Source: a virus
Virus record (IMG/VR): IMGVR_UViG_3300020433_000063
Location: 1-20,411 of that record
Direction: 5' to 3' (one strand)
DNA length: 20,411 nt
Under the pieces are notes generated by a model that searched no databases, was not told the DNA's origin, and saw only the letters and a program-made list of their open reading frames with translations. Position 1 is the first letter of the stretch. The number at the start of each line of letters is the position of its first letter. The position numbers and the translations under genes are program-made. Positions 1-13,657 of the stretch are shown piece after piece.

Positions 1-3000
1 TCTAGAGACATGAACTGCGTCAATACTTCCCCTAATGACGGGTGTAGCGGTTGCGTTGGAAGTTGTGATTCCTTGTCTTCCGTCGATTCTAACGTTAATA
101 GGAGGATCCTGAAAAGTTTGTTCTCCGCTACCTGTAGATGTAAGATTGACATAATCTATTAAACTGGTTGATATCGATACTCGGAATGAGTTATCTGTTA
201 GTTTAATTATAAAGTATTCTTTCTCATTTGTCAGTCCACCAATATTACCTGCACCTTGTGAGTATTTTACAATCTCACCAGATTCAAAACCATGATTATC
301 AATATTGATTGTATCTGTATATGTGTTAATTCCTGTGACTGTTGTTATGAGTCTATTATGAAATATTCCATTTTGTTCAACAAGGATCTTATCTACTTTT
401 TTTCTCTGTTTTGTAGTGCTAAATGACTGAATACCACCACCACTACCAGATATAGGTATGACACCTGTGCCTGATAAAGCGTCCAACTCATTATCTGCTA
501 ACTGAATCTCATAATCATTATTATTGATGACAAAGTATGTTGCGTCATTGATAAGTTTACCAGGTGTTGTTCCTATTCCTATCGCATCGGTATTGTTTGT
601 AGTGTAAACTACTTCTTCTCCAGCCTTCAACCCATGAGCAGTCTTGAATGAAAATTTATTGAGTGATGTGTTTACTACCCCACCAGTTGTTGTTGAATCA
701 AACTCAACTACTTGTGGTGTGAGTTTCATTTTAGGTCTAAGAACTGCAGAGGTATTATTACCACCAGAAATAGTTACATTAGGGTCTTCTTGATAATCAA
801 CACCTGGTGTGTCTACAAGGACATCTATGATCGTTCCTGATACTTGTGATACAACTGACGCACCTACACCACTGTGACCTGTCTGAGACACAGAGAGTCT
901 TGGTCTGTTGATTACATCATATCCAGATCCTGTGTTCAATACATCAACTGTTCTCAGTGATCCATAATAAACTTTATCAGTGGATTTGTATGAGTATATC
1001 TCTACACCATTTGCAAATAAACCTATGCCACCCTGCACTGTCTTTTCTTTTTCTGTGCTGTATTCAGGTACAGGAAACTTTCTCAGTAATCTCTGTCCAC
1101 CTATAGATGTGCCAAACACCGCTTCTGGAGTCAGGAAATGAGTTGTAATGCCAGATATATCAGATCCTACCACTGAGGTAATATACTGCCCTCTACGTAC
1201 GTTCTCTGGGGTGTATGCGAGTGCTAATGTGTTCTGATCAATATTCTTGACATAGTATGGTTGATTCTCAATAAGATTTGTAAGTTTTACAGAATCAGAT
1301 GTGTAATAAACTAACTCACCATCATTATAGTTGTGGTCAGTTACAGTAATTTGACTTGTATCAGTTGAAATACCTGCTGTAGAAAATGTTCTTATTCTTT
1401 TCTGTGGGTTTATCTGCCAGTGAGGTAAACTATTAGATGCGACATAAACTTCCTGTCCTTTTGAATATGAATTTTGTACGTCTACCGCCTCACCTTCTTT
1501 TGTTTTGAGTTGTCTTCTTATGAAGTAAGTATTATTAACATTAATATTTGGAGCATTTACACGAATTGTATTCGATAGGGGTGTACCAGTGATACTACCC
1601 TGAATGATGTTATCATCAATATCAATAATATCAATCGTGTCACCTGTGTACAATGAATGATCATTCAATAGCACAATACTGTAATTATTTGGTGATATTT
1701 GATTTATAGTATTGATTTCATATCTCGCAGCAGTATTTCCTATCCATGTTGTAAACCTCTTGCTACTTTGCTCTATACCAAGTGTGCTTACATTGATTGA
1801 ACTACCTGTTTGCTGAGTAATCGCACTACCATTGAATTTATTGATAACACCAAGTATCTTTAGTCTTACTTCTGAATTGATGTCACCATCTTCATATGAT
1901 ATTGCAATGCCACCTTGTGTGATAGTAGAACCAATACTTATTTCAGATGAATGAGTAGTTACACCAACAAATTGTGTATAGTTTTTAGATGTGTATGGTA
2001 AAACAATATCACCTATAGTCAAATTACCACTACTTTCAAAACTAACTGTGCTGTCTACGTCAATAATTGTTGTATTGATACCTACAGGTTTTGTTACATA
2101 AGTTTTTGATGTCTGTTGAAACTCACCAATCTGTGTACCTTGTGATATGCCTATCTGATAATAATCTCTTCCACTTACAAATGATTTTTCTACACGGTAA
2201 ATTGAACCACTGCTACCGCCTTGTGTAATAGTTTGTCCTTCTATCTTTAGTGGATTTCCGCTTATTACTTCGCAAAGCACAAGATCTGCGACTACATAAT
2301 CCGCATCTGAAGGGCGAATCATGTTTTTTGCGGGTTGAATCATCTCAACCGTTTCGCCATATAAACCACCAAACAATATTTTGAACGCTTCTTCCGTACC
2401 CTTCGATTTGTAGAAGTCTGTTGATTGTCTTATAAAGTTGGGTTGATTGACTCTACTGTTTAGTTTTCTTTCTGCAAAACCAGGCAGTATCTGCTTCTTG
2501 AGTTTTTTTAGAAACTCTGTAAGAAATACATTACTTAGATTATTGACACGAGCATCTTCCGCATGAGTTGATATACCTGTACTTGAAAATGTTAGACTTT
2601 CAGGTTGATTCGTTTTACTATTATTTTCTATTCCACTAAAACCTCTTACACATCCAAAGAATGCTGTGCTACCTATTCCTGTATATGTAATAATCTCGTC
2701 ATTAATCTTTAGTAGTCCATATGACTCTGGCCACCCCTTAGTTGAATCTACGTATATTGTTTGACTTACAAAATTGACTGGTGAGGTAAGAGATGTAAAT
2801 CCAGTCAAAGTTTCATTGTTCAGAAAATCTAAACTTTTATATTCAATTATATTATCTGCAATGTCAATCGTTCCACCTTGAAATTCTTGAGAAACATAAT
2901 ACTGCTCTAAGAAATTTTCAAAATTTGGATTTTCTGTTGCGATAGACTGAGGAATTTGACCTCGAACTATCTCGTGGATTTTGACTTTAGTTATTGATGT

Positions 3001-3009
3001 GTTTATCAT
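1..3009 (-). CDS. Large virion structural protein (baseplate/tail, gp7 position), 3' end outside window
   Basis: An open frame runs from an ATG at 3009 to the left edge without a stop, giving 1003 codons. The ATG overlaps the gp6 stop by one base (TAATG), so translation is probably coupled. The N-terminus reads MINTSITKVKIHEIVRGQIP, followed by a segment containing SKGTEEAFKILFGGLYGE. The rest is rich in short beta-type repeats. A motif H-x-[LFY]-x-x-G-[DE]-x-[VI] recurs near 1680-1630, 1345-1320, 645-605 and 300-265. No catalytic motif was seen. In T4 the gene after gp6 is the baseplate wedge protein gp7, and cyanophages carry large structural proteins here. The position and late-operon context support a virion role, but I cannot call true gp7 homology. 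Confidence 0.75.
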   Translation of the reverse strand, partial: MINTSITKVKIHEIVRGQIPQSIATENPNFENFLEQYYVSQEFQGGTIDIADNIIEYKSLDFLNNETLTGFTSLTSPVNFVSQTIYVDSTKGWPESYGLLKINDEIITYTGIGSTAFFGCVRGFSGIENNSKTNQPESLTFSSTGISTHAEDARVNNLSNVFLTEFLKKLKKQILPGFAERKLNSRVNQPNFIRQSTDFYKSKGTEEAFKILFGGLYGETVEMIQPAKNMIRPSDADYVVADLVLCEVISGNPLKIEGQTITQGGSSGSIYRVEKSFVSGRDYYQIGISQGTQIGEFQQTSKTYVTKPVGINTTIIDVDSTVSFESSGNLTIGDIVLPYTSKNYTQFVGVTTHSSEISIGSTITQGGIAISYEDGDINSEVRLKILGVINKFNGSAITQQTGSSINVSTLGIEQSSKRFTTWIGNTAARYEINTINQISPNNYSIVLLNDHSLYTGDTIDIIDIDDNIIQGSITGTPLSNTIRVNAPNINVNNTYFIRRQLKTKEGEAVDVQNSYSKGQEVYVASNSLPHWQINPQKRIRTFSTAGISTDTSQITVTDHNYNDGELVYYTSDSVKLTNLIENQPYYVKNIDQNTLALAYTPENVRRGQYITSVVGSDISGITTHFLTPEAVFGTSIGGQRLLRKFPVPEYSTEKEKTVQGGIGLFANGVEIYSYKSTDKVYYGSLRTVDVLNTGSGYDVINRPRLSVSQTGHSGVGASVVSQVSGTIIDVLVDTPGVDYQEDPNVTISGGNNTSAVLRPKMKLTPQVVEFDSTTTGGVVNTSLNKFSFKTAHGLKAGEEVVYTTNNTDAIGIGTTPGKLINDATYFVINNNDYEIQLADNELDALSGTGVIPISGSGGGIQSFSTTKQRKKVDKILVEQNGIFHNRLITTVTGINTYTDTINIDNHGFESGEIVKYSQGAGNIGGLTNEKEYFIIKLTDNSFRVSISTSLIDYVNLTSTGSGEQTFQDPPINVRIDGRQGITTSNATATPVIRGSIDAVHVSR

Positions 3010-5141
3010 TAATATCCAGAACCAGAGCTGCTAGACGATGTTGATGATGATGACGAAGAAGATGATGAACTATATGTTGATGTGGATGTTGCAGAATCGG
3101 ATAGTATATTAGGTGTGGAAGTAATGAGTTTACTGGAATCTGAATGTGATGCCCCTGTCATTTTCTGTCCATTATTCATGGTATGGAATGGTCCGAAATA
3201 TGGTTGTCCATCTACATATCCTACCAATTGAGTTGATCCTGTGGTGCTTGATATGATTGCACCCCTTACCTTTTGACCATTTGAGTAACTTGATTGTACA
3301 TCAAATCTTGTGCCTGATGTATTTGCCCCAGAAGCAATAGAGTCTTGCCTCATATAGAAGTTGCTCATGCTAACATCAAACTGAAGGTACAATTCTTTTC
3401 TTGCCAAAACATCATTTGACTCAGGAATTGCCTGTACTTCAACAATATTATTTGGTTGTACAGTTGATGTAATATTCACAGTATCTATAATGATTTCTCC
3501 CTTCTTATAATCAATCGTACCAAAGGATTTAGAGAGAATTTTGATATCAGCGTCTGATACAATTTGGAAAAGTATCAAATTACCTTTATCGGCACCTGCT
3601 ATCTTTTCATCACTGAAGTATACTGTTCCAACCGTTCCTGAAATCGAGAAACCTGTTGATTTGATATTATAAGAAGGATTAGGACAATAAAACGTATTAT
3701 CGTAACATAATTCGTATTGTGCGAATTGATTGATCTTTGCATTGAGATTTCTTCTAATTCTGACTGTTGTGATGTTAGATGTTATAGATGTATTTACGCT
3801 GTCAATTAGAGATAGCATTTTACTATATTTGAATCTACCACCAAACTTATTCAATTCTGTGCCACCTGCAAATGATGTGATTGCACTTATAACTTCTGAC
3901 TTGAGATTATCAGGATCACCTATAAAGTTAGCGTTATAATAAATCGTACTGTCAATCTCAACATACATGAACTTAAGATCTACAAATTCAGGCACAATCC
4001 CTGCTACAGAATAACTTTTCAAAGATGACAATATTTCTTTCTTAGTAAAATCAGATAAGAAATTACCATTTCTAGGTTTTGCTGCAATGAATACTCTTCC
4101 ATATTGAGGTGGATCTAAGTCTTCTCCTCCATATGCACTAACTGATTCTATATTAGAATATACAGTCGGGAGTATCGCTTCATAGTCAGATGCTGTAACT
4201 GCCCTGTGTTGCGACGCATAGCGTCTAGGAGCGTAGTATTTTACACTCTGCAGTGATTCTATCTCATCTCCATTATCGGATGGTTGGTTGACCGTTAGAA
4301 TGGGTGTATAGTTCTGAAGAGTTGCACCATCCTGATCTATGAGTTTACCAGAGAATGAAAAATCTCTTACACCATTACCTGAAGAACCATTAGTGCGGAT
4401 ATATGAAATCTCCACCACGTTTCCGTCATCAAGTTTTTTACCAAAGATATTATCACCAAAAAGTAGTTCATACTTTTCGTCAGATGTCTCCTGTAGCAAA
4501 TAAATGTTTGATGTGGATGTAATACCTAAAATATTGTCAACTAATTTGAATTCTACTTCTGTCGTGGACGAAATATTATCTCTCACTTTAACTCTTATAG
4601 TTGAAGTGTCTATACCATCATTAGGTAAAACATACCTTTGGTTTTTTTGACTGCCATCGACAACAAAATTAGTCTCTAGGTATTGACCTTGGAATATCTC
4701 TAATGTTCCTACTGCTTCTCCATCTGTCGCTGTACCTGTTACTTGTTCGGGTAATGAAAAGATATAACTTGTGCTCGATACCCTACCATTTGATACAATA
4801 CCAGGTTGGAACTTTATTTGTGTAACTGTATTGTCTAAGTCTGAAATATTATAATCAACCTTTGCTTTTGCTGCTCTTTTTGATCTGGGCACATATCCTA
4901 TATTTCTTGCTAATGATACTACGTTTTCTCTTATAGTTGCACTGTCAATGAACGTCTCATTCACTGCCATATTCGTGTTGAACGCTGTAATATATGTGTT
5001 ATACGCTAATAGGTTTATCAATACAGATAAATTAGAACCTTCAAAATCAAAATCAGTAAAATTACTGTTTGATCTTAGGTAATCCTTGATCGAGGTTTTT
5101 ATATCCTCGTAGTTGAGGTTGGTGTATTGTTGTAGTGCCAT
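3009..5141 (-). CDS. gp6: Baseplate wedge subunit, gp6-like
   Basis: A 710-residue protein. T4 gp6 forms the inner dimeric ring of the baseplate wedge that holds the six wedges around the hub. The N-terminal region (MALQQYTNLNYEDIKTSIKD, then a stretch around residues 45-90 with NTNMAVNETFIDSA and RNIGYVPRS) and the central segment near residues 300-365 (YYAPRRYASQHRAVTASDYE, then YGRVFIAAKP) are the patterns I associate with T4-like gp6 and the wider baseplate J group. The start overlaps the gp25 stop by one base and the stop overlaps the next ATG by one base, as expected in a co-translated wedge operon. The last 30 or so residues are an unusual serine-rich tail. Confidence 0.9.
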   Translation of the reverse strand: MALQQYTNLNYEDIKTSIKDYLRSNSNFTDFDFEGSNLSVLINLLAYNTYITAFNTNMAVNETFIDSATIRENVVSLARNIGYVPRSKRAAKAKVDYNISDLDNTVTQIKFQPGIVSNGRVSSTSYIFSLPEQVTGTATDGEAVGTLEIFQGQYLETNFVVDGSQKNQRYVLPNDGIDTSTIRVKVRDNISSTTEVEFKLVDNILGITSTSNIYLLQETSDEKYELLFGDNIFGKKLDDGNVVEISYIRTNGSSGNGVRDFSFSGKLIDQDGATLQNYTPILTVNQPSDNGDEIESLQSVKYYAPRRYASQHRAVTASDYEAILPTVYSNIESVSAYGGEDLDPPQYGRVFIAAKPRNGNFLSDFTKKEILSSLKSYSVAGIVPEFVDLKFMYVEIDSTIYYNANFIGDPDNLKSEVISAITSFAGGTELNKFGGRFKYSKMLSLIDSVNTSITSNITTVRIRRNLNAKINQFAQYELCYDNTFYCPNPSYNIKSTGFSISGTVGTVYFSDEKIAGADKGNLILFQIVSDADIKILSKSFGTIDYKKGEIIIDTVNITSTVQPNNIVEVQAIPESNDVLARKELYLQFDVSMSNFYMRQDSIASGANTSGTRFDVQSSYSNGQKVRGAIISSTTGSTQLVGYVDGQPYFGPFHTMNNGQKMTGASHSDSSKLITSTPNILSDSATSTSTYSSSSSSSSSSTSSSSSGSGY

Positions 5142-5545
5142 TATAACCTAGTTGGTTCTAAAATAAAGTTTAGAGATTGTGTGGGAGCAGATAGACCCAC
5201 AATGTCATAATTTATGGAGATATCAATAGCATTTTCATCAGGAAAAGAATTTACTTTTACCTCTTGAAGCAAGACTCTTGGTTCATAGTTAGTGATCACA
5301 GTTTCGATCTCATTTTTTATAGGGTCGATATAATCATCATTTGCTAATTCAAAAAGTGCTTGTTCCACCCTTGTTCCCACCAAGTCATTGAAGAATACTT
5401 CTCCTATTTGTATTCTTACTAAATTTTGAACAGATCTCTTGATTGCATCCTCATTTTTCAAGGGAAGCATATCATTGGTTATTGGATGACGCTTGAATGA
5501 AAGCGAAATATCTTTGAAACCTTGAGATGTTCTTTGAACTGGCAC
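5141..5545 (-). CDS. gp25: Baseplate wedge subunit, gp25-like
   Basis: A 134-residue protein matching the GPW/gp25 family. It has a short N-terminus with FKDIS, a middle segment with the residues VRIQIGEVFFND typical of this fold, and a C-terminal half ending in short beta strands (IDISINYDIVG). In T4 gp25 joins the wedge core and is needed for sheath assembly. Its usual length is about 130 residues. The start codon is GTG at 5545. It was chosen because the protein then begins MPVQRTSQGF and has normal family length. No strong Shine-Dalgarno sequence lies upstream. Two late-type promoter boxes lie 21-35 bases upstream, so this is the first gene of the late block read here. Confidence 0.92.
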   Translation of the reverse strand: MPVQRTSQGFKDISLSFKRHPITNDMLPLKNEDAIKRSVQNLVRIQIGEVFFNDLVGTRVEQALFELANDDYIDPIKNEIETVITNYEPRVLLQEVKVNSFPDENAIDISINYDIVGLSAPTQSLNFILEPTRL

Positions 5546-5565
5546 TATTTTACTACGATCTCGTG

Positions 5566-5580
5566 TATTTATCTATTTAG
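5566..5580 (-). promoter_or_regulatory. T4-type late promoter boxes before gp25
   Basis: On the minus strand CTAAATA (5580-5574) is followed directly by GATAAATA (5573-5566). T4 late promoters carry TATAAATA as a lone -10 element read by a phage sigma factor. The second box differs from it at one base and lies 20 bases before the gp25 start, placing transcription start just ahead of the gene. Which box is used cannot be told from sequence. Confidence 0.7.
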
Positions 5581-5584
5581 AGGC

Positions 5585-5611
5585 AATAAAAAAGGGAGTC
5601 TCTCGACTCCC
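5585..5611 (-). terminator. Intrinsic terminator after the 5662-7290 genes
   Basis: A perfect 7-bp stem GGGAGTC/GACTCCC (5594-5600 with 5605-5611) has a four-base loop. On the minus strand it is followed by six T residues (5593-5588). It ends transcripts from the upstream accessory genes just before the late promoter of gp25, isolating the structural operon. Confidence 0.85.
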
Positions 5612-5865: not shown

Positions 5866-6621
5866 TTATAAAATCCTAGTTTTCTCATGACCAACTCTAC
5901 ACTTAGGATCTACCCATATTTCGTAACCTGCTTTGATTGCATCTAAACAGAAAGAAACGTCTTCACCACACATGTCTTGGACTTCTCCTGATTCAAATAC
6001 TTGCATCTGAGGAGCAAACCAAGGGTACTTCATTTGTTCGTTTTCAAATACACCTTTCTTAATAAGTAACCAACCAAACCCTGTATAATCAACTGTAAAG
6101 GGTTTGCGTCTCTTGACAATTCCATCAAGCATCTCATGATTCATCACACCACCATTCTCTTTGAAATCGTTCTCTTCCATCCAATGAGCACATGATGTTG
6201 TACGTCCATCTTCAGTTACATACCAACCTGCTGCAAGATCTTTGTCCATCCATACAAGACGATAGAACTGCTCAACACCAAAAACTATATCACTATCAAT
6301 CCATAACTGATAATCATACTTGAGTTTACCATCCCAAGGTATCTGATCAGGTCCTCGTAATACGTTTGCACCTAGACACTTACATCTGGCAAAGTTCACC
6401 ATAGATGAATAGTCTTGCGATATCTGTATGCTTGCACCTGCTTGAACTAATTCAAAACATAGAGATACAAAGTTCTTCAAGTAAACGTATGATACTCCTC
6501 GACCTGGTAAGCAGAATACTATACTCTTTCCTTTGATGAGTGGTCTAGCATTCTCTATTGAAAATTCTTTCTTATCATCTGTTTTAGGTGCAGACGAAAC
6601 CACCTTGAATCCTTTTGCCAT
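5866..6621 (-). CDS. Glycosyltransferase-like protein, GT-A fold
   Basis: A 251-residue protein with GT-A glycosyltransferase features. A strand-forming start (SIVFCLPG, residues 33-40) is followed by LWIDSDIVF with the DSD metal/nucleotide-sugar motif at 109-111. A conserved-looking DYTGFGWLLIKKGVFE lies at 178-193, GEDVSFC at 219-225 (a likely catalytic acidic patch), and a C-terminal GHEK at 244-247 whose His could be the last metal ligand. Such enzymes move a sugar from a nucleotide donor to an acceptor; donor and acceptor are unknown. T4-like phages can glycosylate DNA, but similar cyanophage proteins near baseplate genes have no proven substrate. The gene sits between the gp25 block and the SGNH/carbamoyltransferase island, which suggests virion or envelope glycan chemistry. 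A late-type box precedes it. Confidence 0.7.
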   Translation of the reverse strand: MAKGFKVVSSAPKTDDKKEFSIENARPLIKGKSIVFCLPGRGVSYVYLKNFVSLCFELVQAGASIQISQDYSSMVNFARCKCLGANVLRGPDQIPWDGKLKYDYQLWIDSDIVFGVEQFYRLVWMDKDLAAGWYVTEDGRTTSCAHWMEENDFKENGGVMNHEMLDGIVKRRKPFTVDYTGFGWLLIKKGVFENEQMKYPWFAPQMQVFESGEVQDMCGEDVSFCLDAIKAGYEIWVDPKCRVGHEKTRIL

Positions 6622-6651
6622 TACGAAAGATCGCTGTCAATTCATTATACT

Positions 6652-6659
6652 GATTTATA
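6652..6659 (-). promoter_or_regulatory. Candidate late promoter before the glycosyltransferase
   Basis: The minus strand reads TATAAATC at 6659-6652, one base off the T4 late consensus TATAAATA and 30 bases before the glycosyltransferase ATG. It overlaps the stop of the upstream SGNH gene. This is a single short match in AT-rich DNA, so support is moderate. Confidence 0.45.
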
Positions 6660-7290
6660 TAGTCGATGTCAATTTGTCTATTATCCAGTCTGCAAGTTTT
6701 TCATGACCCCTGTAATTGAAGTGACCTATTCCTTTCTTCTCTTTTTCGTTCCAATAATATTTCTTGTTTTTACTTATCCCTAAGATAGTTTTTTTAGAAG
6801 ATAAATTCCACATACTCTTCGATACTAAAGGAAGATCACCATTACACATTTCTTTGAATGGATTGTCATCACCCTGCACAGGAAAATACTGTAGAAGAAG
6901 TAAAGGTATTCCTTTTCTTTCAAATAGTTGTTCTAACAGTAATCTGTTCTTATAAAAATTTATTGCCCCTACATTATCATCATAAAAGGTATCGTAAAAT
7001 AATTTGGTATTCCTTTCCTCTTCCTTATATCGCAGAGGTCCAGGTATCAACCTACTATTGAGATCTATTCTTGCAGAGTGAGTCATTAATATAATCGCAT
7101 GATCACATGTATTTTTATTCATCCATTCATAGGTGCGGTATACTATACCATCATTACTTGAACCTGACTTTGCATCATTATAATGATCAGCACCAAGACG
7201 ATTACTTACTATAGTCGAGAATCTTTGTTTTACTCTATCTTCACAACCTTTTCCCTGAGTATATGAACAACCATTAAAATACAGAAACAT
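6655..7290 (-). CDS. SGNH/GDSL-like hydrolase paralogue A
   Basis: A 211-residue protein from the ATG at 7290. An upstream in-frame ATG at 7317 exists, but 7290 has a strong GGAGAAG four bases ahead and gives the same N-terminal layout as the four paralogues. Block I is FNGCSYTQG with the predicted nucleophile Ser9. Block II is SGSSNDGI. A central strand reads IILMTHSAR. The C-terminal block is GHFNYRGHEKLADW, with two His. SGNH enzymes are esterases or acyltransferases on sugars, lipids or peptides. The usual Asp of the DxxH motif is not visible, so activity is uncertain. The start overlaps the carbamoyltransferase stop by 17 bases, so the two are co-translated. This is the last gene of the six-gene overlapping run. 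Confidence 0.75.
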   Translation of the reverse strand: MFLYFNGCSYTQGKGCEDRVKQRFSTIVSNRLGADHYNDAKSGSSNDGIVYRTYEWMNKNTCDHAIILMTHSARIDLNSRLIPGPLRYKEEERNTKLFYDTFYDDNVGAINFYKNRLLLEQLFERKGIPLLLLQYFPVQGDDNPFKEMCNGDLPLVSKSMWNLSSKKTILGISKNKKYYWNEKEKKGIGHFNYRGHEKLADWIIDKLTSTI

Positions 7291-8665
7291 TATACTTCTC
7301 CGAAAATAGTTCTGCATCCTCCCATGTATTCACCATAGGTTTTCCTTTTATATTGAGTGATGTATTCAATAACACAGGACAATCAGTTCTCTTGTACCAC
7401 TCCTCCAGTATTGGTCTCAGGATGCTCTCCGATGTTTCAGGTACCGTTTGTACTCTCGCACTATTATCGACGTGTATACAAGCAGGTATCGCCTTTGGTT
7501 GCTTACACTGATAGACATAGGACATGTATCTCGAATGGGAAGGCATATCAAAGTAGTCCTGACAATGCTCCTCCAAAACTGCAGGTGCAAATGGTCTGAA
7601 CTTCTGTCTCTTCTTGATCTCATTTACTCTGTCTTTGTTTGCAAGTTTCCTCGGATCCGCCAATAGACTTCGATTACCGAGAGCACGAGGACCAAACTCA
7701 GCACGACCATTTGCAACGCCAGCGATTCCTTTTTCGAGTAAGCAGTCAACTATTTCCCTAGGATTACAGTAGTGTTGTATATTATATCCCAAGTAGGGAG
7801 AGAATTCAACCTTGCCACCATATGATAACAATGCTGCTCCTAATGCACCACCTGCATCACCAGGATTCGGCATGATCCACATATTATACATTTCTCTCAA
7901 ACCAGTGTTACACACACAGTTGAGTGCCACTCCTCCACCATAGCAAATATTGTCACTATACTTTGCTGCTCTTGCAAATATCTCATTGAGTTCCAATTGC
8001 AGTATACGCTCTGCACTTTTTGCAATATCACACTTATCGTATGATTCTGATATCCTTACACCCTTATGACAGTTCTGATGTCTCAATCTTTCTACCACAT
8101 TCATATAGACAGGTTTTCCAAACGCTGCCATACCCATAAAGATATATTCTTCATCTAGTGGTCTAAGACCTGCCCATTTGGTCAAAGCACTGTACCACAG
8201 TCCAATAGAGTTAGGATATCGCTGTGACCACACCTTTTTATATTTTGCCTTACCTTCTACCATTTTTGCAGTCCATATAGACGTACAATCCCATTCTCCA
8301 ATACTATCAATGACTACACACGCTGCTTCCTCGAATACGGAGGTTTGAAATGCTGCAGCAGCATGAGAAAGGTGATGTGGAAAATATTGAGTGGGTTTCA
8401 GTCCCAAATGCCTTTCACTGAAAGTTGTTCTGTATTGACCTGCATAAAACTGCCTTGTTTTCTTCAAAAGCGGTTTTTCGTAAAAAGCAATGTCATAATT
8501 GCCTTCATGCATGTTGAATAACTGTGCAGTCGCAGATGCAGTGCAATCTAAGTCACGATCATGCTTTTTCTTAGAAAATCGCTCTGAATGAGTTGCAAAA
8601 CGTATTCTGCCTTTGTTTACGACTGCAATTGCAGAATCGTGGAAACCTTCGCTAAATCCAATCAT
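7274..8665 (-). CDS. NodU/CmcH-type carbamoyltransferase
   Basis: A 463-residue protein with the signatures of carbamoyltransferases that use carbamoyl phosphate and ATP to carbamoylate a hydroxyl of a sugar or polyketide. The N-terminal half has GFHDSAIAVV (residues 7-16) and the HHLSHA histidine cluster (97-102), followed by VVIDSIGEWD. The C-terminal YrdC-like half has YGGGVALNC (242-250), NPGDAGGALGAALL (267-280), GRAEFGPRALGNRSLL (320-335), RPFAPAVL (357-364) and LNTSLNIKGKP (433-443). Cellular members are usually near 550-600 residues. This one is compact but keeps all blocks I looked for. It overlaps SGNH B upstream by ATGA and SGNH A downstream, so it is made together with both. The acceptor is unknown; a surface glycan is the simplest inference. 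Confidence 0.92.
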   Translation of the reverse strand: MIGFSEGFHDSAIAVVNKGRIRFATHSERFSKKKHDRDLDCTASATAQLFNMHEGNYDIAFYEKPLLKKTRQFYAGQYRTTFSERHLGLKPTQYFPHHLSHAAAAFQTSVFEEAACVVIDSIGEWDCTSIWTAKMVEGKAKYKKVWSQRYPNSIGLWYSALTKWAGLRPLDEEYIFMGMAAFGKPVYMNVVERLRHQNCHKGVRISESYDKCDIAKSAERILQLELNEIFARAAKYSDNICYGGGVALNCVCNTGLREMYNMWIMPNPGDAGGALGAALLSYGGKVEFSPYLGYNIQHYCNPREIVDCLLEKGIAGVANGRAEFGPRALGNRSLLADPRKLANKDRVNEIKKRQKFRPFAPAVLEEHCQDYFDMPSHSRYMSYVYQCKQPKAIPACIHVDNSARVQTVPETSESILRPILEEWYKRTDCPVLLNTSLNIKGKPMVNTWEDAELFSEKYNVSVF

Positions 8666-9339
8666 AATAACTTCATTATATCAGATGCAATCATTGAATG
8701 CCCCAATGCATTAGGATGATTTTGTTTTGCTCTAGGATACTTAGATAAATTTAGCTGTAAGTCAATAGGCAGTTTGCATTTGGGATTAATTGAAAATATA
8801 AGGTGATCTTTGTTCATTCTTTTCAATTTATTTTTTATAAGGTTGAAAAATAACATTTCTTCAGTCAAACCATACTCATCATGGTATATCTCTTCAAAAT
8901 AATGAATCCACCATTCTTTTCCCTCAAGTACTTTGCCTGTAGTCAAAAATCTTTCTTTACCACCCAAAATTCGATCCCACAGTCTAGTTTCCTTTTTTTC
9001 AAAACGTTTTAACCATTTTTCTCTTTTATTTGGGAATTCCTTGATTTTTGCAAGCAATTTTACTTTATTGAACATTCCTGTGGGATCATACCACTCAGTT
9101 CTTGATGGATAAGTTAATTGTACAAATATCTTGTCAAATGACTCTAAATCTTGTTCTAAAAAAATTCTTGCTATGGCATGATTGGAAAAACCGTTTTCTG
9201 CCAAATTCACAACCTCTGCATCGAGTCTTCTACCAATAATACTGCTGAAACGCTTTTCTTTTATTTTTTCAAGCATGGATTTACCGACTGCGATTTCGCA
9301 ACCCCAAGTCCAACTACATCCTAGAAATAGCAATCTCAT
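8662..9339 (-). CDS. SGNH/GDSL-like hydrolase paralogue B
   Basis: A 225-residue protein started at the ATG at 9339, where it begins MRLLFLGCSWTWG like its paralogues. A longer frame to 9414 would run further into the upstream gene and add 25 residues with no family match. Block I is GCSWTWG with Ser9. Block II is ENGFSNHAIAR. The core strand motif is IFVQLTYPSRTEW. The C-terminal block is HPNALGHSMIASDI. The middle is longer and more lysine-rich than in C, D and E. As in A, the His-Pro block lacks the expected Asp three residues before His. The stop overlaps the carbamoyltransferase start (ATGA). The substrate is unknown; removal or transfer of an acyl group on the carbamoylated product is one possibility. 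Confidence 0.72.
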   Translation of the reverse strand: MRLLFLGCSWTWGCEIAVGKSMLEKIKEKRFSSIIGRRLDAEVVNLAENGFSNHAIARIFLEQDLESFDKIFVQLTYPSRTEWYDPTGMFNKVKLLAKIKEFPNKREKWLKRFEKKETRLWDRILGGKERFLTTGKVLEGKEWWIHYFEEIYHDEYGLTEEMLFFNLIKNKLKRMNKDHLIFSINPKCKLPIDLQLNLSKYPRAKQNHPNALGHSMIASDIMKLL

Positions 9340-9853
9340 AAATCTTGTCTGAAATAATTTGGTGACCTTTTTCGGTAGGATGTCTAGTTTCATCCATCGG
9401 AAAACGTAAATCAAAGATATTCAAGTCAAATTTCTTTGATCGAGTGTACTTATCTGTTGTTACTATTATACATGGCGTATTCTGAATTGCAAAGTAGTCA
9501 CTTATGCCTTCTATAGCAAAATTCTCTTCACATTCACCATATACATCATGATATATGTTCTCATACCAATATTTCCATATTTTTTTCCTCATATCAGTCA
9601 ATCTTGGATGAGAAAGAGCAACACTTATCTCTACCCACTTTTTTTCGTCATGATATTCGTGTCTTGAGCATGATGTCAATTGTATAATCGCCAAATCATA
9701 GTTTTGAGGATTATTTTCAATTGTTGTTCTCCATATTGACCTATTACTGTAACCAACTGATGAAATATTGGTCAAATCTGCGTTTAACTTACTCGCAAGC
9801 ATTTCTGGATACTTTCCAGCAGAAAAAGATGACCCGTTAGAGAATATTTTCAT
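9314..9853 (-). CDS. SGNH/GDSL-like hydrolase paralogue C
   Basis: A 179-residue protein from the ATG at 9853 (MKIFSNGSSFSAG). An ATG at 9868 adds five residues that the paralogues lack. Block I is NGSSFSAG, with Ser9 at the nucleophile position and a second Ser before it instead of Cys or Asp. Block II is SVGYSNRSIWR. The core strand is IIQLTSCSRHEY, nearly identical to the same segment of D. The C-terminal block is DETRHPTEKGHQIISDKI. Here an acidic residue sits four positions before the His, the nearest to a DxxH motif among the five. It overlaps B by 26 bases and D by 17 bases. A run WYENIYHDVYGECEE is shared in pattern with B and E, supporting common descent. Confidence 0.72.
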   Translation of the reverse strand: MKIFSNGSSFSAGKYPEMLASKLNADLTNISSVGYSNRSIWRTTIENNPQNYDLAIIQLTSCSRHEYHDEKKWVEISVALSHPRLTDMRKKIWKYWYENIYHDVYGECEENFAIEGISDYFAIQNTPCIIVTTDKYTRSKKFDLNIFDLRFPMDETRHPTEKGHQIISDKIYEIAISRM

Positions 9854-10445
9854 GTATGTGCTCCGCAATCACTTGATGACCCTTTTTATTTGGATGACCA
9901 TTCGGAAAATTGAAAAATGGTGTGTTATCTCTTCTTCCACCACCAAAAAGAGTGTAGAGAGAGGTCAGTGGTTTGGTTTCAGTCATTTTTTGCCATGATG
10001 ACCGTCTTGTATTATATAATAAGTCTTTTTTACGGTTTAGACAAACAATATAGTAAGGTATACCCTTGACTTTGAAGAAGTATTCGAGTAAAAACCTATT
10101 TTTGTAAAAATTTGCTATATCATCAGCATTTGTATTCAAATTTTCGTAATAAGACAAAGAGGCAAGGTCTTTATTACCTGCATTGAGACGAATATAATGT
10201 TCTCCTTTAGAATCTAGTATTTCTCTTCTTGAAATTTTGGTTAATTGTATAATTGCAAGGTCTACTACATGATTTTCACAGTATTCCATGGTAGTGCGAA
10301 GAATACCATCATTACATTTACCCTTTTCACTGATATTTACGTGTTCCTTTCCAACAAAATCCGATACTAGAGTTGAAAACCTGTCTTGTTCTCTATTTTC
10401 AAGTCCATCACCCCATGTCCAAGAGCATCCGTCAAATAATATCAT
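9837..10445 (-). CDS. SGNH/GDSL-like hydrolase paralogue D
   Basis: A 202-residue protein. The ATG at 10445 was chosen over the TTG one codon earlier, giving MILFDGCSWTWG with Ser8 at the nucleophile position. Block II is EKGKCNDGILR. The core is IIQLTKISRREI. A segment NFYKNRFLLEYFFKVKGIPYY matches INFYKNRLLLEQLFERKGIP of paralogue A closely, so A and D are the nearest pair. The C-terminal block is NGHPNKKGHQVIAEHI. The ATG lies inside the end of the 55-residue upstream gene (14-base overlap), and the stop overlaps gene C. This is the second gene of the overlapping run, with the substrate unknown. Confidence 0.74.
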   Translation of the reverse strand: MILFDGCSWTWGDGLENREQDRFSTLVSDFVGKEHVNISEKGKCNDGILRTTMEYCENHVVDLAIIQLTKISRREILDSKGEHYIRLNAGNKDLASLSYYENLNTNADDIANFYKNRFLLEYFFKVKGIPYYIVCLNRKKDLLYNTRRSSWQKMTETKPLTSLYTLFGGGRRDNTPFFNFPNGHPNKKGHQVIAEHIHENIL

Positions 10446-10599
10446 CAAAATGTGGTTTTACAATCACTTGATCTTCAGTATAGCACGATTTTACACCTGC
10501 TTTGATCATCATTTGAAAAGTTGTGCGTTTTTCATTCGCTTCCTCTTCAGTCAAATGCTCAAAAACGAGTTTTTTGTCTAAGTAAACGTCAAAATCCAT
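10432..10599 (-). CDS. Small hypothetical protein, first gene of the island operon
   Basis: A 55-residue protein beginning MDFDVYLDKKLVFEHLTEEE and ending VIVKPHFDDII. It has no membrane segment and no metal motif. The composition is a charged alpha/beta mix. The stop overlaps SGNH D by 14 bases, so it leads the run of six overlapping genes ending at 6655. No strong Shine-Dalgarno sequence was seen. Small proteins of this pattern (Y-L-D/N-x-K-x-V-x-E-x-L-T-E-E-E) feel familiar from T4-like phages, but I know no function. Coding is supported by the overlap and by uninterrupted, protein-like sequence. Confidence 0.65.
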   Translation of the reverse strand: MDFDVYLDKKLVFEHLTEEEANEKRTTFQMMIKAGVKSCYTEDQVIVKPHFDDII

Positions 10600-10671
10600 A
10601 CTTACACAGAATTCTAGTAAATCTCGACATACAAAACAACATTAAAGTCACTTTATAGTCGTCTGTTTGCT

Positions 10672-11070
10672 TCATCTACCATTAGTTATAACGATTCGAG
10701 TCTTACAACCCTTAGAACCACGTACTAAACGCTTTTTAGGTCCTTCAGATTTGACTCTTTGCCACTCTCTTATTCTATCATAGCGATCTTCATTGAAAAA
10801 GTACTGTTTGATGTACCAATCTTCCCAATTTTTGTGACCTTTCTCTCGATTACAGTTCTCACAGCAACAAATTACGTTTGTTGTCTCGTTTGTACCCCCT
10901 AGAACTTGAGGATGTATGTGATCAAGAGTCATTTGCTCATGATTTTCTCCACAATAGGCACAATTATGGTTCCACTTATCCTTTATTGCATCCTTCCAAC
11001 GTTTTTTTGCCTCCGATCTCGTTTGTGCCTTCATCTGATACAGGTAATCCTGTGGAGAAGCGAGTAGCAT
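10672..11070 (-). CDS. HNH endonuclease
   Basis: A 132-residue protein with a zinc-bound HNH nuclease domain. CAYC (C37, C40) is followed by LDHIHPQVLGG with the catalytic D50-H51 and H53, then the middle Asn of the motif in GTNETTNVICC, and the second metal pair CENC (C70, C73). The N-terminus is basic and helical (QTRSEAKKRWKDAIKDKW) and the C-terminus is basic, as in small free-standing homing-type or nicking endonucleases of phages. It lies between SGNH paralogue E and the rest of the SGNH array, with non-coding gaps of about 70-80 bases on each side, unlike the tight overlaps of its neighbours. That fits a selfish insertion. An ATG 12 codons in is an alternative start. Confidence 0.88.
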   Translation of the reverse strand: MLLASPQDYLYQMKAQTRSEAKKRWKDAIKDKWNHNCAYCGENHEQMTLDHIHPQVLGGTNETTNVICCCENCNREKGHKNWEDWYIKQYFFNEDRYDRIREWQRVKSEGPKKRLVRGSKGCKTRIVITNGR

Positions 11071-11102
11071 ATGTGATTTGGTTGTGTTCTATCTTATATA
11101 TG

Positions 11103-11140
11103 CCCTACTCTTCGTAAATGTAGGGGTCTTCTCTTCGTAA
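11103..11140. repeat. Small hairpin and direct repeat between HNH gene and SGNH E
   Basis: CCCTAC (11103-11108) pairs with GTAGGG (11120-11125). The 10-base word CTCTTCGTAA occurs twice (11108-11117 and 11131-11140). There is no T tract, so this is not an intrinsic terminator. The repeat may mark the insertion border of the HNH gene or be a regulatory site. Confidence 0.4.
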
Positions 11141-11150
11141 TTTCCACATT

Positions 11151-11699
11151 TTATAGCGGAACTTTATCAATTTGATTAAGCGTTTCATAAATTCGGTGTG
11201 CTATAATTCGATGACCAACCCTGTCAGGGTGTTTTGTTGCCCCTAAAGGGATGTCGGGTGTATTTATATGCACGTCATACCCATATTTTGAATCTTTAGA
11301 GTTTGTTAAGAGTAACAATTCTGTATTATTTGCTGCAAAATGATCAATTATAGCCTGTCGAAACAATAATTCGTCACTTTCACCGAATTCTTCACTATAA
11401 TAGTCTCTATAATAGTCTAAAAATCGCTTTCCATGCCCTCTGCCAGGATTAATATTCTCCCATTTCCCGTCTAAAAAGTATTCAGTACGGTTTTTATACG
11501 TCATTTGGATAATTCCAAGTGAAATATCGGTCAAATCTTGCTGAATTGTCTTTCTGTATATCTTTCGATTGCTACAACCTGGTTCTGACAGGTCTATAAA
11601 ATCCTCTTTCCATCGTTTTGAGAGCACACAAGCGAATCTTTCTTCCCTATCTTCAAGATTTGCTCCGTGTGTCCAAGAGTCACCGTTAAATAATAGCAT
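11151..11699 (-). CDS. SGNH/GDSL-like hydrolase paralogue E
   Basis: A 182-residue protein starting MLLFNGDSWTHG, the closest of the five to the classic GDS(L) block I, with Ser8 at the nucleophile position. Block II is EPGCSNRKIYR. The core is IIQMTYKNRTEY. The C-terminal block is GATKHPDRVGHRIIAHRI. As in the others, Asp is not at the -3 position from His. It is separated from the rest of the array by the HNH gene and lies back to back with the plus-strand gene at 11721. Only 21 bases separate the two starts, and they contain a palindromic -10-like box. If active it would be an esterase or acyltransferase; the substrate is unknown. Confidence 0.75.
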   Translation of the reverse strand: MLLFNGDSWTHGANLEDREERFACVLSKRWKEDFIDLSEPGCSNRKIYRKTIQQDLTDISLGIIQMTYKNRTEYFLDGKWENINPGRGHGKRFLDYYRDYYSEEFGESDELLFRQAIIDHFAANNTELLLLTNSKDSKYGYDVHINTPDIPLGATKHPDRVGHRIIAHRIYETLNQIDKVPL

Positions 11700-11706
11700 A
11701 ATGTGT

Positions 11707-11719
11707 TATAATGATTATA
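11707..11719. promoter_or_regulatory. Palindromic divergent -10 box
   Basis: TATAAT-G-ATTATA is a perfect palindrome that puts a consensus -10 hexamer on each strand (11707-11712 plus, 11719-11714 minus). It lies between the divergent starts at 11699 (SGNH E) and 11721. No good -35 box was seen for either direction. Confidence 0.55.
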
Positions 11720-11720
11720 T

Positions 11721-12233
11721 ATGACTCTTGACCCAACCACATATACAATTACAAAACAGAGGACTTATTCCTCTCAGTATAGACTTGACAGGGATATCAG
11801 GCATCTTCAACAGTTAGAGAGAGACAAGGATACATTTACCGAAGTACATATACCAGAATTTTCCTTTTCTTCAGAAGGATTGGTGCTGACCATACAATCA
11901 GAATTCATCAAAGGTCACTTTGTAGGTCATAGATTCTCAGACGTACTCTATCGTGAACTGGTCGAGAGAGAACATCCTTGGACTTTTACCGACTACAACA
12001 TTGGTAACTTTATCAAACAGATCAATACTTCTGACAAGATATACTGTGTGGACTTGGAATCTTACAAAAAGATGGAAATCAGTAAGCGTAAAGAAGAATG
12101 GAACAGATTACGTATCAACCGTGTCATGGGAGATAATGGGTGGTGTTCTCAAAAGACTGACTGTAGGTTCTGTCGTAAAACGGTACAGGAGATGGTGGAT
12201 GAATATACTTTCTTCGGTGAGGATGTCTTCTAA
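11721..12233 (+). CDS. Small protein with kinase-like motifs
   Basis: A 170-residue protein. I do not recognise it as a whole, but the motif order matches a minimal protein/aminoglycoside kinase fold. A possible strand with Lys12 (YTITKQ) is followed by a helix RLDRDIRHLQQLE (21-33) resembling the alpha-C REI..L..L pattern. Then comes an IPEF strand and a hinge-like LVLTIQSEFIKGHF, where EFIKG resembles EYIEG. A catalytic-loop-like TDYNIGNF has Asp and Asn at D-x4-N spacing (as in HGDLHPGN), and VDLES fills the place of the metal-binding Asp. The glycine loop is absent and the loop His is Thr. A C-terminal Cys cluster (CSQKTDCRFC) may bind metal. It could be a reduced lipopolysaccharide- or small-molecule-type kinase, or a degenerate binding fold. 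It starts 8 bases after a TATAAT box. Confidence 0.5.
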   Translation: MTLDPTTYTITKQRTYSSQYRLDRDIRHLQQLERDKDTFTEVHIPEFSFSSEGLVLTIQSEFIKGHFVGHRFSDVLYRELVEREHPWTFTDYNIGNFIKQINTSDKIYCVDLESYKKMEISKRKEEWNRLRINRVMGDNGWCSQKTDCRFCRKTVQEMVDEYTFFGEDVF

Positions 12234-12257
12234 GTATATGTTAAGGGGGACTCTCGG

Positions 12258-12270
12258 ACGGTAACACCGT
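12258..12270 (+). terminator. Weak hairpin after the kinase-like gene
   Basis: ACGGT-AAC-ACCGT forms a 5-bp stem, followed by TATTTAGAATTT, 25 bases after the stop at 12233. The stem is short and the T tract broken, so it is a weak terminator at best. Confidence 0.35.
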
Positions 12271-12347
12271 TATTTAGAATTTCACATATTTACATGAACT
12301 TTATTGAATTTTTGTTTCAGTTATGATAAGATACGAAATTATCCCTC

Positions 12348-12375
12348 TTGACAATCATTTGATACACGTTATAAT
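12348..12375 (+). promoter_or_regulatory. Consensus sigma-70-type promoter with embedded operator half
   Basis: TTGACA (12348-12353), a 16-base spacer and TATAAT (12370-12375). The spacer contains ATCATTTGATAC (12354-12365), matching 12 of the 14 bases of the palindrome next to the promoter at 14530-14558. Predicted start of transcription is about 12382, only about three bases before the sulfotransferase ATG at 12385, so the transcript may be leaderless. Confidence 0.85.
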
Positions 12376-12384
12376 AACATAACT

Positions 12385-13131
12385 ATGAAAACCCTTCTGA
12401 TCAATACAGGTTTTGGTTGGTCTGCAACCACACCTCTTTATCGAAGTCTTCAAGACAATTCATATATTGAAAAGTATCACTTCAATAAGAGAGAGAAAGA
12501 ATCTCATTACCTACAGAGGGTTTACGAGGGACACTCGGATATAAGTGACTATATTTCCTATCATAATGCTTTACCAGGCGAGAGAGTTGCCGACTTTTCC
12601 AACACCAATGCAGATCTCCCTTCTGAGTTCATCTCACAAATCGCCCCTATACTACACAAGCACTTCGATGTGAAAGTGACAATGATCGTAAGAGATCCAG
12701 TTCGTAGATTCTATTCCATGTGTGTACACAACTATCGGAAAAACGTTTTAGGTATCGATCAAAATGACTATACAGGAAATCGTACAAGTGATGCAGTTCT
12801 ACCATACTTTCGCTCCATGTTATCAAGAGCAAGACATTCTTATGTTCAGACTTATAAGACTTATAAAGAACACTTTCCCACATATGTGATAGTGATGGAG
12901 AACCTGTGGAAAAACCCAGAGAAAGAACTCCCCTTACTCTCATCATTTCTAGATTACCCTATTACAAAACTCTTTCCTAACGTATATCATGATGGCATTC
13001 TTCATCATAAACTCAAAGACCAATGGACGGATGATATACCACTTCCTAAACTCACCTATAAACTTGCTCGAAAACAAATGTCATGGATATATGACGAATG
13101 GGAGAAAGAGTTTGACAATATGCCATGGTAG
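12385..13131 (+). CDS. Sulfotransferase family protein
   Basis: A 248-residue protein with the two signatures of PAPS-dependent sulfotransferases. The N-terminal loop LLINTGFGWSATTPLYRSL (residues 4-22) fits the 5'-phosphosulfate binding site. VTMIVRDPVRRFYSMCVHNY (98-117) fits the 3'-phosphate binding segment with the R-D-P-x-x-R core. The length suits a single-domain soluble enzyme, and no signal peptide was seen. It would move sulfate from PAPS to a hydroxyl or amine of a glycan or small molecule. It carries its own consensus promoter and lies beside the SGNH/carbamoyltransferase island. That suggests the same surface polymer as acceptor, though early host targets are possible. Its 3' end contains the promoter for the next two genes. 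Confidence 0.8.
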   Translation: MKTLLINTGFGWSATTPLYRSLQDNSYIEKYHFNKREKESHYLQRVYEGHSDISDYISYHNALPGERVADFSNTNADLPSEFISQIAPILHKHFDVKVTMIVRDPVRRFYSMCVHNYRKNVLGIDQNDYTGNRTSDAVLPYFRSMLSRARHSYVQTYKTYKEHFPTYVIVMENLWKNPEKELPLLSSFLDYPITKLFPNVYHDGILHHKLKDQWTDDIPLPKLTYKLARKQMSWIYDEWEKEFDNMPW

Positions 13132-13140
13132 TACTATAAT
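13112..13140 (+). promoter_or_regulatory. Consensus sigma-70-type promoter inside sulfotransferase 3' end
   Basis: TTGACA (13112-13117), exactly 17 bases, then TATAAT (13135-13140). Both hexamers are perfect. The -35 box lies in the last codons of the sulfotransferase gene and the -10 just after its stop. Predicted start is near 13147, giving a leader of about 83 bases before the ATG at 13230. The leader has a small GTAAC/GTTAC hairpin. Confidence 0.88.
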
Positions 13141-13229
13141 AAAAGAGTAACGACGGTTACCTTGGGAGTGACTGAATAATCTTTCTGGCAAATGCTGGAT
13201 AAGGTGATGAGACACAGGTGGTGCTGCTG

Positions 13230-13487
13230 ATGCGAGTCAGAACCGACCTACCAGTCGGGTCTCAGGCAAAGAACGTATTTTACACTGTAGTGATGCCCGT
13301 TCTTTTGTTGGTAGACAGGATTCCAACCTCCCTTTTTTCCTCTTATATTGATGGGACGTTGAGTATAAGAGGAACCCTATTCTTTTTTATTATGCCTTTA
13401 TTTCTAATTGTACTCGGAGCATCTGGTATAGGTGCTGCCATCGCCCTTTATATTCTTCGTAAGTACGACGACCCCAATACATTATGA
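13230..13487 (+). CDS. Small membrane protein
   Basis: An 85-residue protein. The ATG at 13230 is preceded by AGGTGG eight bases upstream and was preferred to an in-frame GTG at 13218 that would sit on that site. A hydrophobic stretch near residues 21-33 (FYTVVMPVLLLV) is followed by a polar segment. A long membrane helix at about 51-78 (LFFFIMPLFLIVLGASGIGA and onward) ends in a charged tail RKYDDPNTL. One or two membrane passes are predicted. I do not recognise the family. Its stop overlaps the next start as ATGA, so the two are probably made as a pair. It is driven by the strong promoter at 13112-13140. Candidate roles include host-membrane take-over or photosynthesis-related functions, but nothing in the sequence decides. 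Confidence 0.7.
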   Translation: MRVRTDLPVGSQAKNVFYTVVMPVLLLVDRIPTSLFSSYIDGTLSIRGTLFFFIMPLFLIVLGASGIGAAIALYILRKYDDPNTL

Positions 13488-13657
13488 ACGCCAAATTGAA
13501 ACTTTTTTATAAAGTTGGATTTCCTCTTGTTATTATTATCCAACTGACTTCCATACTCTTCATGCTTTCATATAACGGAAGACAAAAAGCATTATCCTGT
13601 AAGGCACTCGGTGAATACTTTGTTTGTAAACAGGTTGAGATACCAAAAAAACTATAG
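13484..13657 (+). CDS. Small membrane protein coupled to the preceding gene
   Basis: A 57-residue protein starting at the ATG that overlaps the previous stop by four bases. A basic N-terminus (MNAKLKLFYK) is followed by one hydrophobic helix (VGFPLVIIIQLTSILFML) and a soluble tail containing two Cys (SCKALGEYFVCKQVEIPKKL). A signal-anchor layout with the tail outside, possibly with a disulfide between the two Cys ten residues apart, would fit. The function is not recognised. ATGA coupling and matching topology with its neighbour suggest a two-subunit membrane complex. Confidence 0.68.
   Translation: MNAKLKLFYKVGFPLVIIIQLTSILFMLSYNGRQKALSCKALGEYFVCKQVEIPKKL

Follow-up and report, generated by a model that had tools for sequence, protein, structure and literature searches.

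A conserved, hypervariable locus of predicted tailoring enzymes in a clade of uncultured T4-like cyanophages

NodU/Nol-type O-carbamoyltransferases (phrog_1601, T4-GC 303/721/1350) are already known as sporadic genes of cyanophages (PMC3037559). In addition, T4-like cyanophages have hyperplastic regions, LPS gene clusters and losable 'ORFanage' segments, in which variable content lies between conserved phage genes (PMC3037559, PMC4503421). The locus described here shares this arrangement but differs in being a dedicated site beside gp25 that is filled mainly from two enzyme families, SGNH-like proteins and sulfotransferases. Its carbamoyltransferase has the same Pfam domains as those of the cyanophage isolates but belongs to a compact clade, is ~30% identical to them and is embedded in an SGNH/sulfotransferase array. 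No such array was found in carbamoyltransferase-bearing cyanophage isolates. A literature search returned no paper joining carbamoyltransferase, sulfotransferase and cyanophage, and none on the single cell AG-345-D19, whose virus is discussed below.

The stretch analysed (the window) is the whole IMG/VR record IMGVR_UViG_3300020433_000063, a fragment of 20,411 bases. It is attributed to a marine T4-like phage because PHROG comparison places T4-like baseplate genes in its left third and a DNA methyltransferase at its right end. The former, all on the minus strand, are a baseplate wedge or virion structural gene that runs off the window (1..3009; phrog_2885, E = 5e-252) and the baseplate wedge genes gp6 (3009..5141; phrog_219, E = 3e-192) and gp25 (5141..5545; phrog_261, E = 3e-45). 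Photosystem genes of the psbA/psbD type are present in the related long records G001 (192 kb) and G002 (172 kb), with one such gene in G003, and these records are therefore taken to be cyanophages. From these near relatives we infer that the window phage is also a cyanophage.

A first-pass annotation of the window had listed, between 5866 and 13131, a glycosyltransferase-like protein, a NodU-type carbamoyltransferase, five SGNH-like proteins, a sulfotransferase and a kinase-like protein. All of these are present. It had also proposed that six genes overlap tightly and are made together. An overlapping chain does exist, but it comprises five genes (SGNH-carbamoyltransferase-SGNH-SGNH-SGNH, 6655-10448), followed by an HNH gene and then by the fifth SGNH gene. 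The SGNH-like, carbamoyltransferase and glycosyltransferase genes all lie on the minus strand and the kinase-like and sulfotransferase genes on the plus strand, so the array is not one transcript; the strands and the separate promoters (see below) rule out a single message for all its genes. The HNH endonuclease gene (10672..11070, minus strand; PF14279, 6.5e-12), located within the SGNH run, belongs to a family found in 18 records of the locus set. It is weakly similar, below the cut-off, to the HNH of IscB.

IMG/VR was scanned with the window carbamoyltransferase. This yielded 251 relatives, of which 80 were kept as loci; these are thus selected by carbamoyltransferase similarity, have flanks of up to 10 kb and come from records most of which are fragments. 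The array families were built by linked similarity from simple-script gene calls, with one window SGNH gene dropped from the automatic counts. The genes are arranged as array - carbamoyltransferase - (SGNH-like gene) - glycosyltransferase - gp25 - gp6. SGNH-like genes occur in 75/80 loci, sulfotransferase genes in 64/80 and one or the other in 79/80, while glycosyltransferase and gp25 are both present in 78/80. The upstream sequence exceeds 3 kb in 47 loci; SGNH-like genes are present in all of these, and 43 carry sulfotransferase genes as well. In most loci the slot between carbamoyltransferase and glycosyltransferase is filled by an SGNH-like gene; in 10 it is taken by a radical SAM gene. 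Further array members (2OG-Fe(II) oxygenases, radical SAM proteins, a nucleotide-sugar epimerase, a second sulfotransferase type and an HpcH aldolase) are, by their sequence families, predicted tailoring enzymes. A frequent array protein of ~355 amino acids (L020, 8877-10004), with 26 relatives and no Pfam match, lies directly before the carbamoyltransferase.

These comparisons show that the window region exemplifies a conserved, hypervariable locus of a clade of uncultured T4-like cyanophages. The gene set previously described as a phage island is genuine and extends beyond the window, but it is not a one-off. The proposed search for the same set in other phages has now been made: homologues of the SGNH-like genes are found together with genes for carbamoyltransferases and sulfotransferases, which refutes the possibility that they never are.

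As a control, the glycosyltransferase of phage S-T4 was used to retrieve 80 loci, of which 46 have at least 1.5 kb on the array side. SGNH-like, sulfotransferase or carbamoyltransferase genes of the array families were found in 0/80 of these S-T4-type loci. Since 79/80 of the related loci carry array families, compared with none of the controls, the array content is not due to chance. With two SGNH-like queries and one sulfotransferase query, tblastn against 50,697 named phage records identified only AG-345-D19 and, for SGNH-like genes, C48C1; among named phage records, both families are thus nearly restricted to the single-cell virus AG-345-D19. Family profiles matched nothing in nine cyanophage and pelagiphage isolates; a profile search identified one SGNH-like gene near a carbamoyltransferase gene of pelagiphage Mosig. 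An IMG/VR search with the window sulfotransferase protein gave no match, and scans of prokaryote genomes, which detect close relatives only, revealed no relatives of one SGNH-like and one sulfotransferase protein.

Clustering at 50% identity divides 211 SGNH-like proteins into 68 clusters and 176 sulfotransferase proteins into 47. In the 47 locus pairs whose carbamoyltransferases match at 90% identity or higher, the median share of array genes with a counterpart at 70% identity or above is 21%. The SGNH genes had initially been regarded as a five-fold expansion. Five homologous copies are indeed present in the window, but they did not arise by local duplication: SGNH-like copies in the same locus are ~31% identical (~31-35% for same-locus copies in general) and their closest relatives lie elsewhere. 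When loci with two or more copies of a family are considered, the nearest relative is in another locus for 188/189 SGNH-like genes and 152/158 sulfotransferase genes; near-duplicate records inflate these other-locus identities, not the low same-locus ones. This rules out recent tandem duplication of the SGNH genes and, because the closest relatives sit in other phages, points to shuffling between phages. The array set is thus passed from phage to phage and not multiplied on the spot. A 20-base cassette composed of a late-type promoter and a hairpin, TCTAAATAACGGTGTTACCG (12259..12278, minus strand), is identical in loci L010, L012 and L014, where it precedes an SGNH gene; in the window, the kinase-like gene intervenes. 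By analogy, its distribution resembles the shuffling of promoters and stem-loops reported for T4-type phages, which is discussed in PMC4503421.

The gene at 7274..8665 (minus strand) is predicted to encode a compact NodU/Nol-type O-carbamoyltransferase with the motif GPRALGNRS. Its family assignment is secure, with matches to PF16861 (1.6e-51) and PF02543 (2.8e-33) in Pfam and to phrog_1601 (3e-89) among the PHROGs. The N- and C-terminal carbamoyltransferase domains score 174.7 and 116.2 bits, compared with curated cut-offs of 27 and 24, and the catalytic motifs (GxHD, HH..H and GPRALGNRS) are invariant among 22 homologues. These matches bear out the earlier description as NodU-type, although the score against the NodU equivalog itself (NF041651) is 140 bits, below its cut-off of 1000. 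Most members of the clade are 458-463 amino acids long, compared with 505 in phage C48C1. Record G001 also includes a second carbamoyltransferase (L104, 141670-143856), apparently split into two ORFs and adjoining a radical SAM-like gene.

The five SGNH-like genes of the window are mutually homologous, one of them retrieving the other four at E values of 1e-23 to 8e-7. The gene at 6655..7317 occupies the slot between carbamoyltransferase and glycosyltransferase. Three others, 8662..9414 (likely start 9339, MRLLFLGCSW), 9314..9868 (likely start near 9853) and 9837..10448 (also identified by Pfam search), were assigned by homology to the other window SGNH-like genes. The last, 11151..11699, also assigned by homology, is the first of the minus-strand unit and is 96% identical to a gene of locus L011. 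A structure model of the 6655-7317 product, built from a family alignment of 68 sequences, has a pLDDT of 91 and gives 67 Foldseek matches in the PDB at E <= 1e-3. The PDB matches listed are overwhelmingly GDSL/SGNH esterases (for example, TesA and Axe2), and among the viral fold matches are many unnamed proteins with an SGNH domain from uncultured phages. An SGNH fold, seen both in the model and in the PDB matches, argues against the possibility, foreseen in the first-pass annotation, that these genes match unrelated families.

Over 174 unique SGNH-like sequences, four residues are nearly invariant: a Ser (166), the Asn of a GxSN motif (171), an Arg (172) and a His (170). The phage family shares with the SGNH/GDSL esterases (TesA, Axe2, CE2) the fold, the nucleophile Ser of block I, the block-II Gly and the block V His. 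It differs from them in having neither a secretion signal nor the GxND block III, whose Asn is absent (QxTxxxR stands in its place and N55 falls in block II), nor the canonical DxxH Asp (an Asp lies three residues ahead of the His in 3/165 sequences), and in having the GxSN Asn and the Arg as invariant residues. The family is thus built on the SGNH fold, yet is not a canonical four-block member. Catalysis by these proteins is assumed, because the canonical Asp and the block-III Asn are missing. DUF6071 (PF19547) is matched by 20/71 of the phage SGNH-like members, and neither the window SGNH-like proteins nor the window sulfotransferase had a convincing PHROG match. Nearly all SGNH-like proteins lack a signal peptide or membrane segment and none was found in the sulfotransferases or carbamoyltransferases, so that the substrate of the array enzymes is probably cytosolic.

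The sulfotransferase gene (12385..13131, plus strand) was assigned to the PAPS-dependent type from PF00685, a family profile and its motif. The window protein alone reaches E = 2e-4 against PF00685 but, at 21.2 bits, is just below the 22-bit cut-off. The assignment, made at the outset in the first-pass annotation, is supported by the family profile, which matches solved sulfotransferases (3RNL, 2e-8); the profile similarity of other family members reaches 5e-7. Across 44 sequences G, T, RDP, R and S are nearly invariant, and we take these to be the PAPS-binding loop and the R...S motif. The phage family thus has profile similarity and an FRDPxRR...S motif in common with PAPS-dependent sulfotransferases (3RNL and the heparan 3-O-sulfotransferases), from which it differs in forming a rapidly evolving pool encoded by phages, a single fetched locus having as many as 8 copies.

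The protein encoded at 5866..6621 (minus strand), matching phrog_1574 (4e-113) and, weakly, glycosyltransferase PHROGs, had been called DXD glycosyltransferase-like. Its DSD motif (D109-S-D111) is invariant in the family and the best fold matches of its model are GT-A enzymes, but the model is of low confidence (pLDDT 57) and phrog_1574 carries no function. Motif, weak PHROG matches and GT-A-like model together make it a likely glycosyltransferase. Members of phrog_1574 are very common among marine T4-like phages, occurring in at least 599 IMG/VR stretches, and are ~85% conserved here. As this conserved neighbour is also present in cyanophages without the array, its link with the array may be positional only. 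The protein encoded at 11721..12233 (plus strand) carries the signature D91-x4-N96...D111, whose three residues are invariant in a family of 8 from related arrays. It had no database match and no PDB match, and 'kinase-like' is a label drawn from the motif only.

The promoters give a mixed picture. Before gp25 (5546..5611, minus strand), a terminator-like hairpin (5611-5594) is followed by a late-type promoter motif, CTCTAAATAGATAAATA, and such a motif occurs in 57/57 distinct gp25 upstream regions. Perfect sigma70-type promoters (12/12 matches each) precede the glycosyltransferase (TTGACA-17-TATAAT, 6644..6672, minus strand), the sulfotransferase (12348..12375, plus strand) and a manA RNA (13112..13140, plus strand). 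In 90-92% of loci, that of the glycosyltransferase is mismatched at no more than 2 positions. The manA RNA (RF01745; 13146..13337, plus strand; E = 5e-46) was also found in 8/14 other arrays searched, and the eight copies checked have a sigma70 promoter with 0-1 mismatches immediately before the RNA. It is a cyanophage element located ahead of mannose, fructose and other metabolic genes (PMC2864571). In the window (13112-13490, plus strand), the promoter-manA RNA unit, which recurs in related arrays, is followed by a tiny membrane-protein-like ORF, MPLFLIVLGASGIGAAIALYILRKYDDPNTL. Late-type motifs precede 14 array units, nearly all SGNH-like, and across loci promoters are not clearly enriched ahead of the SGNH and sulfotransferase genes taken as a class. 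The promoters thus set the glycosyltransferase apart from the virion genes, without settling the target of the array.

With a probability of about 0.5, we consider that the array serves to modify, in a combinatorial way, a glycan synthesised inside infected cells, the host envelope being slightly preferred as the target. Its enzymes would act in the cytoplasm on a glycan under synthesis, decorating and trimming hydroxyl groups: carbamoyl and sulfate would be added, and acyl groups removed or moved. The choice of array would set the final chemistry and each array would give a different surface. Altered envelope glycans might then be bound less well by rival or sister phages, and competing phages or varied receptors could provide the selection that favours shuffling. 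The first-pass annotation had suggested that the region may sugar-decorate and edit a surface polymer. Chemistry of group transfer and removal on a polymer fits the families found, but among the array genes we recognised neither a polymerase or flippase nor a set of glycosyltransferases, so that the array would modify a glycan and not build one. We slightly prefer the glycans of the infected host's envelope because the sulfotransferase and glycosyltransferase have sigma70-type promoters. Phage fibre glycans come next, and close behind, because a sulfotransferase cluster lies by a fibre-like gene and the carbamoyltransferases of isolates are near oxygenase and fibre genes.

These last observations also bear on whether the array acts on the virion of the phage itself, glycans of tail-fibre or baseplate proteins being the most likely substrates, with variation tuning adsorption or host range. 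The locus abuts gp25 and gp6 in 78/80 loci, although adjacency is not proof and gp25 has a separate terminator and late-type motif while the glycosyltransferase and window sulfotransferase use sigma70-type promoters; late-type motifs do head some SGNH units. In record G001, a second sulfotransferase cluster (L103, 42732-47870) is located between a 1430-amino-acid repetitive fibre-like gene, itself with no PHROG match, and neck-type genes, and a cluster beside a fibre-like gene recurs in L195 and L197. In isolates S-SSM5 and S-CAM8, 2OG-Fe(II) oxygenase genes and a gene annotated as fibre lie close to the carbamoyltransferase gene, and its neighbours in P-RSM4 are the same. On balance we regard decoration of the virion as rather unlikely. 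The G001 cluster also holds two more P-loop proteins of unknown family.

It is more doubtful still that unrelated metabolic genes, belonging to no single pathway, have simply gathered at a site prone to recombination. The hyperplastic and 'ORFanage' segments cited above provide a precedent, the array genes shuffle freely and an HNH gene recurs, but the content is non-random, since two protein families and one carbamoyltransferase dominate 79/80 loci, and even divergent copies retain the catalytic motifs. Tailoring of a small molecule or peptide rather than a glycan seems improbable: carbamoyltransferase, sulfotransferase, radical SAM proteins and oxygenases are typical natural-product tailoring genes, but the genes examined included no recognisable gene for building a scaffold and no candidate precursor peptide. 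It is very improbable that the carbamoyltransferase modifies DNA. A metagenomic phage enzyme has been shown to make 5-carbamoyloxymethylcytosine (PMC8670742); the window enzyme belongs to the same superfamily and has the carbamoyltransferase domains in common with it, at 25% identity. However, the motif is GPRALGNRS in 22/22 homologues and GPRALCNTT in the DNA enzyme, that is, GNR instead of CNT at TobZ 421/423, positions that the same study links to modification. In addition, no match to PF00303 (thymidylate synthase/dCMP hydroxymethylase) was found in 9 records, several of them fragments. DNA carbamoylation is therefore disfavoured both by the motif and by the missing dCMP hydroxymethylase partner.

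The locus is common in uncultured cyanophages and apparently unstudied, with its variation concentrated in sugar-type tailoring enzymes. Quite tentatively, sulfotransferases and SGNH-type enzymes might form a common pool across the ocean, which is drawn upon at a dedicated site and gives phages of near-identical backbone chemically distinct host or virion surfaces, a combinatorial chemistry that can be likened to bacterial O-antigen variation. If the tailoring of glycans is confirmed, the locus would yield many sulfotransferases and SGNH-type enzymes of phage origin and would provide a testable handle on competition and variation among the phages of abundant marine photosynthetic bacteria. That related viruses differ mainly in the enzymes they hold suggests an unstudied way to vary surface chemistry.
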